Shown here: piece after piece, positions 1 to 8,100 of the stretch
How positions within the stretch are numbered: position 1 is the stretch's first letter
How the letters are laid out: the number at the start of each line of letters is the position of its first letter
NCBI RefSeq assembly: GCF_000002985.6
Contig: NC_003279.8
Location: forward strand, 8,618,001-8,682,000
DNA length: 64,000 bases
Origin: Caenorhabditis elegans
Taxonomy: Eukaryota > Nematoda > Chromadorea > Rhabditida > Rhabditidae
Direction: 5' to 3'
Translations under genes and position numbers: made by a program
Notes under the pieces: model-generated
Told to the model about the DNA's origin: nothing
What the model saw: only the letters and a program-made list of their open reading frames with translations
Databases searched by the model: none

Positions 1-889
1 CAGGTATTTAAAAAAAGCTAGAACATATGACAACTGAGATGTCAAAGATAAACTGTGGTGGGCAATACTAATAGAAGAAATACGGATAGTTACGGGACTT
101 TAATAATTGTTTGTATGGGAGAACTCAAATATAACTTTCAGGGTCCTTGAAGGCAATGAAATGCTCATGAAACACCGAGCGCGACTTCTAAAACCAACCC
201 AAAAGAGAACTACAAAGGATGGCAATTCTGAAACAGTACGTTACAAAAGTTTTCACAAGATATTTCTATCTGTTGGATGTTTTCATGTATTCAAGCTTTT
301 TTTAAACTATTACAATAGTTTTACATTTCAATAGTTCAAGTGTGTTTTTGAACCGCCTGCCTGCCTTCAATTTAGAATTGCCAAAGTCTTGGCAATCGTC
401 AAATATAGACTTTGGAACCAAGTTACAATTCTCCGGAAACCGGTGAAAAATTTCCCATTACTGCACAGCACTGGTAGGCATTGGTCATGAAGGCAGGCAT
501 GCAGGCATACGTCTTTGTGTTTACGTGGCAACTTTGAACATATCAATTCCAGCCCTCAACACATGACGGAACCAGAAAAATCGTGTTTCAAGAGAAAGGA
601 CAAATTCTTCTAAACACCAACAATGTTACTGAATATGCTGTGCGTTTTTTGTTTTAAACTTTTTAAAATTAATAACCACAACTTTCAGGTGATGGACGGA
701 GAAGACAAACCGGGCGAGAAGATAAACATCAAAAAAGTTACATTTGATTTTGGATCGTTTGTTACTTACAATGTAGGGATTGACGTGGATGAATGGGAAG
801 AGCCAATTGAGAAGATTGCGGGCTCCGCAGGTTCGGGTGGATCAGTTATGACGGCTAGTATCAAGCAGAAGTCCATTAAGAGATTTTAA
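1..889 (+). CDS. 3' end of an unrecognised plus-strand gene (last two full exons)
   Basis: Bases 1-3 (CAG, followed by gtattt) look like the end of an exon. A second exon runs 142-235 between a TTTCAG acceptor and a GTACGT donor. The terminal exon runs 689-889 and ends in TAA, with AATAAA-type signals just downstream. The frames join without a break, giving a C-terminus of about 97 residues: a basic stretch (KHRARLLKPTQKR), then DGEDKPGEKI, then a non-repetitive segment around FDFGSFVTYNVGIDVDEWEEP, and a Gly/Ser-rich tail ending KSIKRF. I do not recognise the family. The gene begins outside the window and runs toward fer-1. Its terminal exon and 3' flank (672-1195) are repeated exactly at 4495-5018, on the far side of a retrotransposon. 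Confidence 0.7.
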
Positions 890-1195
890 ATAAACAATTT
901 TTTTGTCTTTTTGAATAAATAAATTGTGGGAAAGAACTCAGAGGCAAAAACACTAAGTTTAGAAACTTCGACAATTGTTGCACCGCTGTGGTAGGTAGGG
1001 TTGAACTGACATGGAAGTAAGCCGACAAGGTGTGATTGATTTTTTGGGTGCACAGTTAATTCGCGATATGCGCATAACGACTGTAAGCAAGATGGGCATA
1101 TTACAATCGAGGTTCTTGCACAATATGCACATTTCGACTTGTTAAATCCGACTTCCTTTCGTTTGAAGTTTGTTACATATTGATTAACTTTTGAC
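672..1195 (+). repeat. Left copy of a 524-bp direct repeat flanking the RTE element
   Basis: Bases 672-1195 recur at 4495-5018 with a constant offset of 3823, with no mismatch or indel found by eye. The repeat begins ATAACCACAACTTTCAG and ends TTAACTTTTGAC. It contains a splice acceptor, a complete terminal exon and its 3' flank. It directly abuts the retrotransposon, so it is best read as an unusually long target-site duplication. RTE-class insertions are known for variable, often long duplications. Confidence 0.9.
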
Positions 1196-1262
1196 TGGCT
1201 CTTTCTGTACTAAGCCTCTTCGTGGCGAAAGGGATCAACAGATAACCACTTCAACAAACTCG

Positions 1263-1394
1263 ATGATTTCGTCACATCGAGAGTGGCTTGGTTTGGAACC
1301 AAGTGCAAATTATCTGGCCAAGAAGTACACCGTCTCACGCAGGCCAGAGGTAGTGTCGAATACTTTCTGTCCGGGCGGCTCTAGATTGGCTTAG
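1263..1394 (+). CDS. RTE ORF1, 43-aa upstream reading frame
   Basis: A 43-codon ATG-initiated frame (begins [10 protein letters not shown], ends PGGSRLA) overlaps the first 10 bases of the long endonuclease/RT frame, which lies in the -1 frame relative to it. A small ORF of this size upstream of the main frame is a described feature of RTE elements; its function is unknown. Its value here may be translational: the long frame has no ATG of its own before the middle of the endonuclease, so ribosomes may enter through ORF1 by -1 frameshifting or by termination and re-initiation at the overlap. Confidence 0.5.
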
Positions 1395-4300
1395 CAGGTC
1401 ATTATAGAGTATCTAGAGACACAACTTTTGCTCTAAACAGCAACCCATCCTGCCTCAGTCCTCCGCATCCGGCCTCTGCAAAGGGAAAGACAGTTCCTGG
1501 AGCACGTCGGAAGAGGCGATCTAATCTCGGAGTCCAAACCATATGTCAATCGGACTTGGAAATTAAGAAGCCGCGGGACAAAACAAGAAGAACTGACTAT
1601 CGCGTGTGCACCTTCAACTGCAGGTCCTTGTCTTCGGATGATCGACTTGCTGAGTTGCTAGAAGAGACGAGGCGAATCCAATTCGACGTCATCGGATTGT
1701 GTGAAACCAAACGAGCAGCCGAGGCACACTTGATACATCACGACGGTACCGGCGTCTTCTTAGGCAAACGGAATGAAAGTTCTGTATCCGGTGGGGTCGG
1801 CTTCATAGTTCGAAGCACCCTCCTTCCCAAAATCGTAGAAGTACGATTTCTTAGTCACCGCATCGGCTTACTCACCTTCAAAGTGAGCCGAAAATTCAAC
1901 TGCACGGTGATTCAAGTCTATGCTCCAACTGCGGACTCAGACCTTGAGGAAATCTGCGACTTCTACGACCGTGTTGAAGACGTCTTCAGAGAGTGCCGAA
2001 GCAAGTATAAACTTGTTATCGGCGACTTCAACGCTCGAATGGGATGCAGACAAAACAACGAAAGGTACATTGGCCCCCATGCCATGGAACCAAGAAATGA
2101 TACTGGAGAGCTTCTCGCAACATTTTGTGAAACCAACCGTCTGTGGCACACGAACTCTATGTTCAAAAAGCCTATGCACAAACGGTGGACTTTCGTCAGT
2201 CCCGACGGGAATCACAGACACGAAATTGACCACATTCTGGCCAATGGAAAGTTTGTCACAGATACCACTGTACTCCCCTCTTTCACAAATGGTAGCGACC
2301 ATAGGTTACTCCGCTGTAACCTCCACTTCAACAATTGTCTAGCAAAGTTGGAGCAGGTCAGACGGAGAAAACCTCCGAAAAGAGTGTTGGACCCGGCGTT
2401 TGCTTATGCAATCTCAGCGACAGTCACGGTTCAGAGTGATCCTGATTTAGATACCGACTATGATAATCTGATTCAGTCACTAAAAGAACTTCAAGACCAA
2501 GCTATCGTTCGACCGGCCAACCACTCATCCAACAGACTTTCGGAGGAAACCCGAAAACTGCTGAACAAAAGACGTTTTATGGATAGAAATGATCCCCAAT
2601 TCAAATCTATTTCAGATAAATGTCGTGAAGCAGTTCAGAAAGACCATGAAGCTTTTGCCAGTACTCGCCTTCTATCTGCTGCGAACCAGAAAAAGAGTTT
2701 GAAAAGAGTTGCTAGGGACATCAACGAATATAAGTCAGTTATCCCATGCCTCAAATCAACCTCTACTGGTGAAAGAATCACTTCCAGGGTGAAAATGGAG
2801 CAGGAGATTGAGAAGTTCTACACGGAGCTCTTCAAAAGCGCTGTGAGCAACTCTCAAACATCTTCAATACCCGCCACGCCAACTCCACCGCCGTTTCTCC
2901 CGGAAGAAATTCGACATGTTCTCCGTTCCTTCCCGAATGGTAAAGCTGCAGGCCAAGACAAAATCAGTGCAGATTTCTTGAAATCTTGCCACGATAACGT
3001 CATTGACCTGATAACGGATCGATTCAACAGGTACCTCCACAGCAGAAATGTACCGAAACCCTGGAAAACCTCCAAAACCACTCTCATCTTCAAGAAAGGT
3101 GACCGTGAGAATTTGGAAAACTATAGGCCCATCTGCCTACTACCCGTACTCTACAAAGTATTCACCAAGTGTTTGCTGAATAGAATGCGAAGATCCCTTG
3201 ATGAGGCTCAACCTGTCGAGCAGGCCGGATTCCGACGGTCTTTCTCTACGATCGATCACATCCACTCGCTCCAAAGACTTCTTGAAGTCGGCAGGGAATA
3301 CCAGATCCCACTGACACTTGTCTTCATAGATTTCAAGAAGGCATTTGACAGTGTTGAACACCAGGCAATCTGGAAAAGTCTCGACGAGCAAGGTGCAGAT
3401 GGAGCCTATATTGATCTACTGAAAGAGTGTTATAAAAATTGTACCACAAATTTTACCCCATTCCACAGGCCAGTCGCAGTACCTGTGACCAAAGGAGTTC
3501 GACAAGGAGATCCCATCTCTCCGAATCTCTTCTCCGCTTGCCTCGAACACGTTTTCCGAAAGCTTTCCTGGATTGAATTGAAAGGAGAAGCTGAGGATTA
3601 CGATACGATCCCTGGAATGAGAGTGAATGGCAGAAATCTAACGAACCTCAGATTTGCTGACGATATTGTGCTCATCGCCAATCATCCGAATACTGCCAGC
3701 AAAATGCTCCAAGAACTCGTACAAAAATGCTCTGAAGTAGGTCTCGAGATCAATACTGGGAAGACGAAAGCCTTGCGAAACCGATTCGCTGACCCCAGTA
3801 AAGTCTACTTCGGTAGCCCTTCCCCCACCACCCAGCTCGACGACGTCGACGAGTACATCTACCTCGGTCGTCAAATCAACGCCCAAAACAACTTGATGCC
3901 GGAAATCCACCGAAGACGTCGAGCAGCCTGGGCTGCATTCAATGGAATCAAGAACACCACCGACTCCATCACCGACAAGAAGATTCGTGCGAATCTGTTC
4001 GACTCAATTGTCCTTCCAGCGCTCACCTACGGTTCAGAAGCCTGGACATTCACCAAAGCTCTATCCGAACGAGTACGAATCACACATGCCTCCCTAGAAA
4101 GACGGCTTGTGGGAATCACACTCACTCAACAACGAGAACGAGATCTCCATCGAGAAGACATTCGTACGATGTCTCTAGTCAGGGATCCGCTCAATTTCGT
4201 GAAAAAGAGAAAGCTAGGATGGGCTGGACACGTTGCGAGAAGGAAAGACGGAAGATGGACCACGTTGATGACAGAATGGCGCCCATATGGATGGAAAAGG

Positions 4301-4456
4301 CCTGTTGGAAGGCCGCCGATGCGATGGACTGATTCGCTGCGAAAGGAGATCACCACTCGTGACGCAGACGGAGAAGTCATCACCCCCTGGTCCACTATAG
4401 CCAAGGACCGAAAACAATGGCTTGCTGTGATCCGCAGGAATACCACGAATTCCTGA
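1385..4456 (+). CDS. RTE ORF2: apurinic-type endonuclease plus reverse transcriptase
   Basis: The frame is open from just after a TAG at 1382-1384 to the stop at 4454-4456, that is 1023 sense codons. The N-terminal third is an APE-like endonuclease: TFNCRS near 1610, CETK with the catalytic Glu near 1700, GDFNAR near 2025, EIDHIL near 2225 and SDHRL near 2295. The centre is a reverse transcriptase with [41 protein letters not shown] and the catalytic FADD at about 3653-3664. The C-terminal part contains GWAGHVARR, the conserved segment usual after RT in this class. All key residues appear intact. There is no in-frame ATG until about 2039, inside the endonuclease, so translation must begin upstream by a non-AUG codon or through ORF1. 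Confidence 0.92.
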
Positions 4457-4494
4457 AGAACGGATCGTCTAAGTATCTAAGTAAGTATCTAAGT

Positions 4495-5018
4495 ATAACC
4501 ACAACTTTCAGGTGATGGACGGAGAAGACAAACCGGGCGAGAAGATAAACATCAAAAAAGTTACATTTGATTTTGGATCGTTTGTTACTTACAATGTAGG
4601 GATTGACGTGGATGAATGGGAAGAGCCAATTGAGAAGATTGCGGGCTCCGCAGGTTCGGGTGGATCAGTTATGACGGCTAGTATCAAGCAGAAGTCCATT
4701 AAGAGATTTTAAATAAACAATTTTTTTGTCTTTTTGAATAAATAAATTGTGGGAAAGAACTCAGAGGCAAAAACACTAAGTTTAGAAACTTCGACAATTG
4801 TTGCACCGCTGTGGTAGGTAGGGTTGAACTGACATGGAAGTAAGCCGACAAGGTGTGATTGATTTTTTGGGTGCACAGTTAATTCGCGATATGCGCATAA
4901 CGACTGTAAGCAAGATGGGCATATTACAATCGAGGTTCTTGCACAATATGCACATTTCGACTTGTTAAATCCGACTTCCTTTCGTTTGAAGTTTGTTACA
5001 TATTGATTAACTTTTGAC
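4495..5018 (+). repeat. Right copy of the 524-bp direct repeat
   Basis: This is an exact-looking copy of 672-1195. It follows the RTE 3' tail and runs into unduplicated sequence (GAAACAAGG) at 5019, which would be the original continuation of the locus. It carries a second copy of the terminal exon of the left-hand gene and of its 3' flank. Confidence 0.9.
4512..4712 (+). pseudogene. Duplicated terminal exon of the left-hand gene, stranded downstream of the RTE
   Basis: Bases 4512-4712 repeat the terminal exon 689-889 with its TTTCAG acceptor, 67 codons including the stop, and polyadenylation region. It has no exon 5' of it other than those beyond the retrotransposon. It could be used only if the upstream donor at 235/236 spliced over the whole RTE. 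In that case it would encode the same C-terminus, so loss of either copy would be neutral. It is most likely a non-functional by-product of the insertion. Confidence 0.8.
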
Positions 5019-5155
5019 GAAACAAGGATCCTTTTTAAACGAAACAAACAAACAAAGCAAAAAATAATTGTAGGAAACAATAATACATTGTGATTAGGGG
5101 AAGCACTAATAAATAAAAATTATGGGGGGGGGGTATGAAATGAGGGGGCATTAAA

Positions 5156-8100
5156 TTAGAAAATTGCCTTTATAATTTCGGCTAAAATTGTCGGCCAAGT
5201 GTGCAACAACACGAAAATTGTGAGAATCAGAATAACAATAATGATGAGCCAGAGCAGAATTTGAAGACCATAGTAGTGCCAGAAATACTTGATGCACGGC
5301 TTGATTCGGGACACCAACCACGAGTTGGCCCATGACTTCCGATCAGGTTTTTCCAAGAATGGGCTCTGAAATTCATCAGAATCTAAACAATTTCAAAATC
5401 ACCTAAAACTTACGTGGTTCGGCTCGGATCGTTTCTTTCCAGCTGGCTCTTGATCGGCTTCTTGTTTGGTGAGAAGTAGCATGTCCATCTCAACAAGACC
5501 CATGATCCATTTAGGATCCTTTCCAACGTCATCATTCTTCTTCTTGGCATTCTGAGGTTCCTCGTGTGGATACTCCTCGGTAAGCATTGGCCACCAACCG
5601 TACAAGTTGCGAGATTCGAAGATGTTCACAGTATCATCGTAACCTTCTGGTTCCACGAACAACTAAAATTTTAATTGAATGAAGAATATTAATTAAATTA
5701 AAATCGATACCACAGGCTTCGGGAATGGCTTCTTCTTCACTTTGCGTTTTCCACACAAGCACTTGGTCTCAAAGCAGAAGATACAGCATTTGCAGAGACA
5801 TCCTCTCCTGGTACAACACTTTGGACACTTCACTCCACGCTGTCTCTTCTTTGTTGAGTAGACACCAACGTCGGATGGAGAACCGATTCCCTCTGAAGAA
5901 TGAAAAATTATAAATAAAAGGAACGTACAATAAAAATACCAATGAAATCGAGAAGATCCAGTTCAATGTCACCGAGAAGACGATCCTTGCGGAACTTGTT
6001 CTTATCCCAAAGCTCAATGACAAGAATCGGATCGACGAGTTCTTCCACTGGTTTGCAGAAGAATCGGTTTTTGGTGTACGCGACCACCTTCTTCTCCCAA
6101 GGATTGTAGTCGAAGTTGAGCAGGAAACGCCAGTTGAACTCCCCGGTTCCATCGAGAACTCTGCAATTATTACTTGATTTAACTTTTATAGACCCAAAAT
6201 TGTAAATTTTCTTTTTTTAAAGATAAATTTGCACAAGCTTCACAAGGGTCTTCAATTTTGTTACCTGAAATGCGTATCCGTCTTGTGTCCCTTAGTCATT
6301 CCATTGATGAATGCCTTGACGTAAAGATCGGAGACAGGCTCGGCAAAGCTTCTTTTGACTGGAATCGCTCCTCGTACATCCATGACCGCGATACGTAGCT
6401 GATAGTTGATGGGTTTCCGTGGTGCAATGTTGAATGGAGCAGGAATCGCGCCATATTCCATCTGGAACGACAAACATTTTTGTGTGCAGTTGGAAAAATT
6501 CGAAAGTTGAACAATAGAAAAAGAACTTACCGGAAAGATGTCAACGAACATTCGAAGTTCTCCCTTCTGAGTTCTTCCTCCTTTATCCGAGAACAATGGC
6601 CGAGATTCGACATGCTCTGGGACCAAATTCATCTGTCGGAGAATGAAGAGAGCAATTGTTTGCAACTGAGATCCCATTATTCTCATCTTCGCCTTCTTCC
6701 TCAACTCTCCATCAGCCGTTTCTGCCTTTTCCGTTGTAACCTTCTTCAATGGCTTGCCCTTGCTCCGATGCTTCTCCCACTTTAGCTTCTCTTTCTCTCG
6801 TTCTAGATCCTCTTCATCCCAACTACCGTCTGATACGTCCTCATTTTGTTGATCAGAACCATCACTGAAATTTTCTTTTCCAGCTTTTTGACGTTGAGAA
6901 TTCAGCATAGCAATCTCTTCGCTGAAAATTTAAATATTATACGTTTCCAAAATGAAATGCCCTAAACTCACTTCTCAAAGACATGGAGAACTTCACTGAA
7001 CCAGAATGTGATCTTCTCAATGGTAATTCCCTTCTCTTCTCCTCTCTCCGTCTGCCTACTTTCAATCTTTGGAACTGATAGCATCATCTTGTAGCAGTAC
7101 GACTTCAGGATCTCCATTGGAGTCATCTGATCCCTCCATTGCAGCTCTCCTTGTACAGTGAACTGACCACTCAGCCCACCAGTTGCTCTCCATTTTGTGA
7201 GAAGACGATTTTCCAGATCGATTGTAGTTGATCCTATTTCTTGATCCGAAAGGATTCTCCGCTTGCCCATCACAGTGATTTTCAGATCTTTCTCCAGCGG
7301 AATCGTAACCGTCATGTCAACTCGTTCTCCAAATATCGGATCACAACACTCTGAGCGGTAGTTCTTCTTCAGGTTCACGTTCTGCTTTCCGCAATGAAGT
7401 TTAACGTACGAGTCGACTCGTCCTTTCCGTGCATTTGAGATCAGCCCATTTGCTTCGATGATGTAAACTCGGACGAGACATCGAGTTGGTCCAACGAAGT
7501 CGACAACGGTATTTATCGCAGCTGGAGGCTTACCCTTCTTGAGTTTCGAGATGAGAAGTCGGCATTTCAATTCTCCAGCCTTTTCTTTTTCTTCCGGATC
7601 GTCGAAATCTCCCTTCATTGATTTGACAAACGGGAATGTGTCCAGGAAATCAGAGAAGTTGTTGTATCCGTTCATCTGTTCAAGTGGTCGGCGGAAGATA
7701 CGTACATACTCCATGCCAGATCTGAAAAGTAACAGTTTTGAAACAATTTATAATCTGAGATCCGGTGTCATTCACGTTTACTTGAACGAGCTCCTCCTAC
7801 TGGCTATAGCGCATTTATCATGCAGTATCATTATAATCCTACAGTAACCAACAGAAACTCACTCTGGATATCCCGGTGATCTATGAAATTGTGACATCGA
7901 TGCATAATATCTGCTCCACCAATCCAAAGGTACCATAGGATCAGTTGTTAAAGTCGGAACACGAACCATCCTGATGATCTGATCAAACTCCTCCGTAATT
8001 ACCAAATCCAACTGTTCCCATCTTTCGGCGTGATCACTTTTGACCTGAAAGTAATATTTTGACTTTAACATCTAGAAATCATATTACAAACCTTGGGAAC

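Follow-up and report, generated by a model that had tools for sequence, protein, structure and literature searches.

An RTE-1-type LINE in Caenorhabditis elegans flanked by a 524-bp target-site duplication that carries an apparent terminal exon

RTE-1 of C. elegans is said to go back to Youngman et al. in 1996 and to Malik and Eickbush in 1998, and the first copy described by Youngman et al. reportedly carried a direct repeat of ~200 bp. A repeat of comparable length (199–200 bp) flanks one of the copies identified here (L007), whereas the 524-bp, exon-bearing repeat that is the subject of this work is particular to its locus. RTE-1 is given as 3,291 bp in length with a frame of 1,066 amino acids (aa) and a possible first open reading frame of 43 aa (PMC1291365). 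The element examined here lies in a 64,000-nucleotide stretch of C. elegans DNA (the window, C1:8618001-8682000) and resembles RTE-1 in its length of ~3.3 kb, its endonuclease and reverse transcriptase, and its very short, repeat-bearing 3′ untranslated region; however, its frame comprises 1,023 aa from stop to stop rather than the 1,066 aa quoted (PMC1291365).

Target-site duplications (TSDs) of APE LINEs are in general 10–20 bp in length, and the second half of LINE integration is very poorly understood (PMC6895275). Values quoted include 10–12 bp for SR3 (PMC1291365), 20 bp in one element and 10 bp in another in a source that also describes Bombyx elements as differing in TSD length (PMC2887409), and 10 bp in the RTE clade (PMC1852546). 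The TSD of the rotifer element R9 (126 bp; PMC6895275) is, like those described here, well over the usual 10–20 bp, but R9 is specific to rDNA whereas the RTE-1 repeats lie at scattered sites and have lengths of between ~15 and 1,395 bp. The ZfL2-2 LINE in chicken DT40 cells likewise generated a long TSD (1,228 bp in one of 25 wild-type insertions) and has microhomology or extra bases at its junctions (PMC2666801). Long TSDs are exceptional in that system, whereas seven of the 12 repeats counted here are at least 181 bp. A survey of transposon presence and absence in wild strains of C. elegans mentions RTE1 (PMC5850821). The literature covered consisted of open papers, in which nothing was found on long TSDs with RTE, and we do not present the RTE-1 TSD lengths as unpublished. 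The features of the locus are as follows, in window coordinates.

142..235, + strand: inferred penultimate exon with acceptor TTTCAG and donor GTACGT, in frame with the terminal exon (conceptual)
672..1195, + strand: left copy of the TSD, 524 bp, identical to 4495–5018, with exact borders and two places in the genome
689..889, + strand: putative terminal exon, copy 1, 66 codons plus stop (codon score 9.4)
889..923, + strand: three AATAAA signals (889, 914, and 918) at or after the copy 1 stop, with counterparts at 4712, 4737, and 4741
1196..4494, + strand: RTE-1-type non-LTR retrotransposon of 3,299 bp that ends in a short run of TAAGTATC-like repeats and has nine other approximately full-length copies at 98–100% identity
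1385..4456, + strand: stop-to-stop frame of 1,023 aa with matches to AP-type endonuclease and reverse transcriptase domains
4495..5018, + strand: right copy of the TSD, identical to 672–1195
4512..4712, + strand: putative terminal exon, copy 2, identical in sequence to copy 1

The 1,023-aa frame matched the Pfam families Exo_endo_phos (residues 75–306, E = 6.7e-17) and RVT_1 (residues 570–823, E = 2.8e-33). The 3′ end of the element is very short, with the stop at 4456 followed by the tail of TAAGTATC-like repeats to 4494, and neither AATAAA nor ATTAAA occurs within 1196–4494. Transcripts of this copy might take the AATAAA signals of exon copy 2 (4712–4741). The domains, length of ~3.3 kb, short repeat tail, lack of LTRs, and dispersed copies together indicate, as judged from sequence, an RTE-1-type LINE; the name RTE-1 (published record AF054983) is applied on the basis of these features. 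No match to structured RNA was obtained in the window at Rfam gathering thresholds.

Comparison of 672–1195 with 4495–5018 base by base revealed no mismatches (524 of 524 identical), and an offset of 3,823 was common to all 495 repeated 30-mers in window positions 1–6500. The first bases outside the repeats differ on both sides (671/4494 and 1196/5019), such that the repeats start and end exactly at the borders of the element. When used as a query against the genome (100,286,401 bp in seven contigs), the 524-bp sequence returned two matches (two candidates, two scored), both at this locus. These repeats are the TSD of the element between them. The dinucleotide AT at 672–673 is assignable to the tail of the element or to the target, and the length of the TSD is therefore 522–524 bp.

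The repeat contains what looks like a terminal coding exon with an acceptor, in-frame coding sequence, stop, and polyadenylation signals. The exon begins 17 bases into the repeat, with the acceptor AG ending at 688 in copy 1 and at 4511 in copy 2. Positions 689–889 had a codon score of 9.4 and the other five frames were negative, as trained on 2,367 codons from long open frames of window positions 5101–64000 rather than on annotated genes. None of 2,000 base shuffles reached 9.4, in a control that is easy because shuffles with stops are penalised (10 of 2,000 further shuffles were stop-free). Conceptual exons joined from L033:9400 to window position 889 would encode an open 241-aa protein whose last 66 codons are those of 689–889, in a model that requires an acceptor of untypical look at L033:9925. 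Two pieces of the gene product, 117 aa and 97 aa long and without exon 3, matched no Pfam family above the cut-off, the best matches below it being WLS-like_TM (E = 0.015) and US29 (E = 0.2). F43G9.12 and F43G9.13 were considered as names for this left-hand gene, and neither was adopted. A minus-strand gene at approximately 5150–6930, presumably fer-1, converges on the insertion.

An initial annotation of this DNA had described an RTE-1 insertion flanked by repeats that keep a constant offset, coincide with the borders of the retrotransposon, and copy a terminal exon with its splice acceptor, stop, and 3′ flank. The base-by-base alignment that it proposed bears out the identity of the repeats, and the offset, the differing outer bases, and the LINE with its endonuclease/reverse transcriptase frame agree with that description; the copied exon is likewise upheld, as a conceptual exon with the expected signals.

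A genome search with the element yielded at least 47 match rows, including fragments and relatives at 69–78% identity. Ten approximately full-length copies were among the matches listed, the window copy included, and the 1,023-aa frame is present in five of these ten, again including the window copy. Many others are truncated at the 5′ end and share the 3′ end: 14 of the 30 located rows begin at an internal position of the element and run to 3292–3299. With the ends left out, the window copy differs from its four closest full-length relatives by only 8, 9, 9, and 17 substitutions, which suggests that the family has moved recently, and from the other five by 53–64 substitutions. At the 5′ borders of six copies (L003, L004, L006, L007, L008, and L009), G or TGN precedes CTCTTTCTG. 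Among these six, L003 is the only one in which the TSD shows the bases at the 5′ border (TGG) not to be target; the G at the border of L007 may be target.

Border repeats were then sought in 26 oriented copies as direct repeats of at least 14 bp and at least 90% identity lying no more than 60 bp from both borders. Of the 47 match rows, 30 were assigned loci, of which 26 were tested, and the 17 rows without a locus were outside the test. Four loci (L020, L025, L031, and L032) were excluded as pieces without a 3′ end, although L025 and L031 supplied left flanks for checks of broken copies; L013 lacks a 3′ end yet was kept among the 26 and was negative. Thirteen of the 26 copies passed and 12 were counted, each with repeats of at least 98% identity. 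In a control pairing the left flank of one copy with the right flank of another, four of 650 comparisons passed, the longest at 16 bp. The 15-bp match of L021 falls within this range and was therefore not counted, and the 18-bp, A-rich repeat of L004 (15 bp in another register) barely exceeds it and is weak.

The other counted repeats measure 25 bp (L018), 44 bp (L017), 68 bp (L015), 70 bp (L019), 181 bp (L012), 199–200 bp (L007), 248 bp (L030), 404 bp (L022), 442 bp (L011), 524 bp (window copy), and 1,395–1,396 bp (L005), lengths that shift by a few bases under other scoring. Seven of the 26 tested copies, or seven of the 12 counted, thus have repeats of at least 181 bp. The window repeat is the second longest of the 12; without L005, the counted range is ~15–524 bp and the window copy is the longest. 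The earlier statement that long duplications are typical of RTE elements therefore holds among these copies, where they are common, but not for the RTE clade at large, for which 10–12, 20, and 10 bp are quoted (PMC1291365, PMC2887409, PMC1852546).

Fourteen of the 26 copies lack a convincing border repeat (13 with nothing, plus L021), which counts against the TSD explanation. No border-anchored repeat was detected at L009, L010, or L014 even with flanks of ~3.5 kb, nor did L016 and L028, the 3′ parts of broken copies, share a repeat with the left flanks of their own 5′ parts. The flanks of L006, L008, and L021 are repetitive, which makes a negative result weak there. In five copies (L004, L011, L017, L019, and L022), the repeat stops 8–38 bases before the 5′ border; such gaps resemble the extra nucleotides and template jumps described for ZfL2-2 (PMC2666801). 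By eye, the intervening bases in L017 resemble element sequence. The start of the 199–200-bp TSD of L007 (C3:6998095-7001391) looks coding by eye, and exon pieces may occur in other TSDs too.

The best explanation for the window locus, and one that we hold with high confidence, is that a full-length RTE-1-type LINE inserted by target-primed reverse transcription with a long TSD that copied the last exon. We infer the cut positions and the order of steps as follows. The element would have integrated just 3′ of a small plus-strand gene, with its sense strand on the plus strand. cDNA synthesis would have started at a first nick placed 5′ of the last exon, at 671/672 of the bottom strand, with an overlap of 1–2 bases between the element tail and the target. 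The top strand would then have been cut or released at 1195/1196, ~524 bp from the first nick, and fill-in of both long single strands would have copied everything between the cuts. Such fill-in would account for the presence on both sides of the element of the last exon, from its acceptor through the coding part and stop to the AATAAA signals, and the empty site would have held a single copy of the exon.

The identity of the two repeats does not on its own separate a recent insertion from an older one whose repeats have been held identical by gene conversion, and the identical blocks at L005 and L020 make exchange between long repeats plausible. Only 8–9 substitutions, however, separate the element itself from the three full-length copies nearest to it, such that recency needs no conversion, and we consider an older, converted insertion improbable.

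Which exon copy serves the gene bears on what the insertion did. Copy 1 keeps every signal seen, namely the acceptor, coding part, stop, and AATAAA, and the last of its AATAAA signals ends 272 bp before the element. From these signals, copy 2 should be dispensable for the gene. Because copy 1 retains the 3′ end of the gene, the insertion was probably neutral and copy 2 is probably an unused relic. The initial annotation had instead proposed two alternative, identical last exons; the copies are indeed identical, but alternative use is not favoured, since copy 1 has full 3′-end signals and copy 2 lies beyond these and a 3.3-kb element. That both terminal exons are used, the insertion having created a working alternative last exon, is consistent with the retention in copy 2 of 17 pre-exon bases with the acceptor, the coding part, the stop, and the AATAAA signals. 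Yet transcripts are expected to end at the signals of copy 1, the T-rich stretch upstream of 672 was lost from copy 2, and even a used copy 2 would make nothing new, as the mRNA is identical through the repeat; we thus regard a working alternative exon as unlikely. Splicing from 235 to either copy gives a product that is letter-identical through the repeat, so spliced RNA cannot tell the copies apart, and reads joining 235 to 4512, the RNA test suggested earlier, would be unrecognisable.

Tandem duplications occur, and a 524-bp tandem duplication that preceded the arrival of RTE-1 exactly at its junction would also place two copies around the element. This order of events is very improbable and was rejected: it needs an exact junction insertion without a TSD of its own, with the right copy following directly on the tail, and eleven other RTE-1 copies have border repeats of other lengths at other loci (L004 and L005 being doubtful). 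Origin of exon copy 2 by 3′ transduction, considered for an element without AATAAA or ATTAAA, was rejected because the genome search with the 524 bp returned only the two copies at this locus, and the flanks are not LTRs because they are present only at this site and the element is a LINE.

At C6:15396122-15405223, L005 and L020 are accompanied by three copies of a 1,395-bp block. Along this locus, a first block is followed by a full RTE-1, a second block, RTE-1 positions 4–1607 joined to the tail, and a third block; the second RTE-1 is internally deleted, with ~1.7 kb missing. Block 1 matches block 2 without a difference across 1,396 bp, and the identity extends to block 3 for 1,395 bp. The triplication perhaps arose through a 1.4-kb TSD, followed by unequal exchange between blocks and then by deletion inside one element, although the 1,395-bp repeat of L005, lying within this triplicated stretch, might have another origin. 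The C6 blocks suggest that long TSDs may seed further duplication. A tentative generalization, possible but not one that we favour, is that second-strand cleavage by RTE-1 occurs at no fixed short distance, yielding TSDs of ~15–1,395 bp that then seed unequal exchange, as at C6. If true, a single LINE family would generate duplications of exon size in one step.

The copied exon is a striking but recognizable product of an element family whose target duplications can be unusually long. Among the tested RTE-1 copies, long TSDs are common (seven of 26 at least 181 bp) as compared to the 10–20 bp given for APE LINEs (PMC6895275), and RTE-1 is therefore naturally suited to the study of the second half of LINE integration. 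It also lends itself to the question of how frequently TSD repeats undergo further recombination. The window insertion adds a clean and probably recent case in which a LINE duplicated an apparent whole exon in a single event, at no evident cost to the gene.
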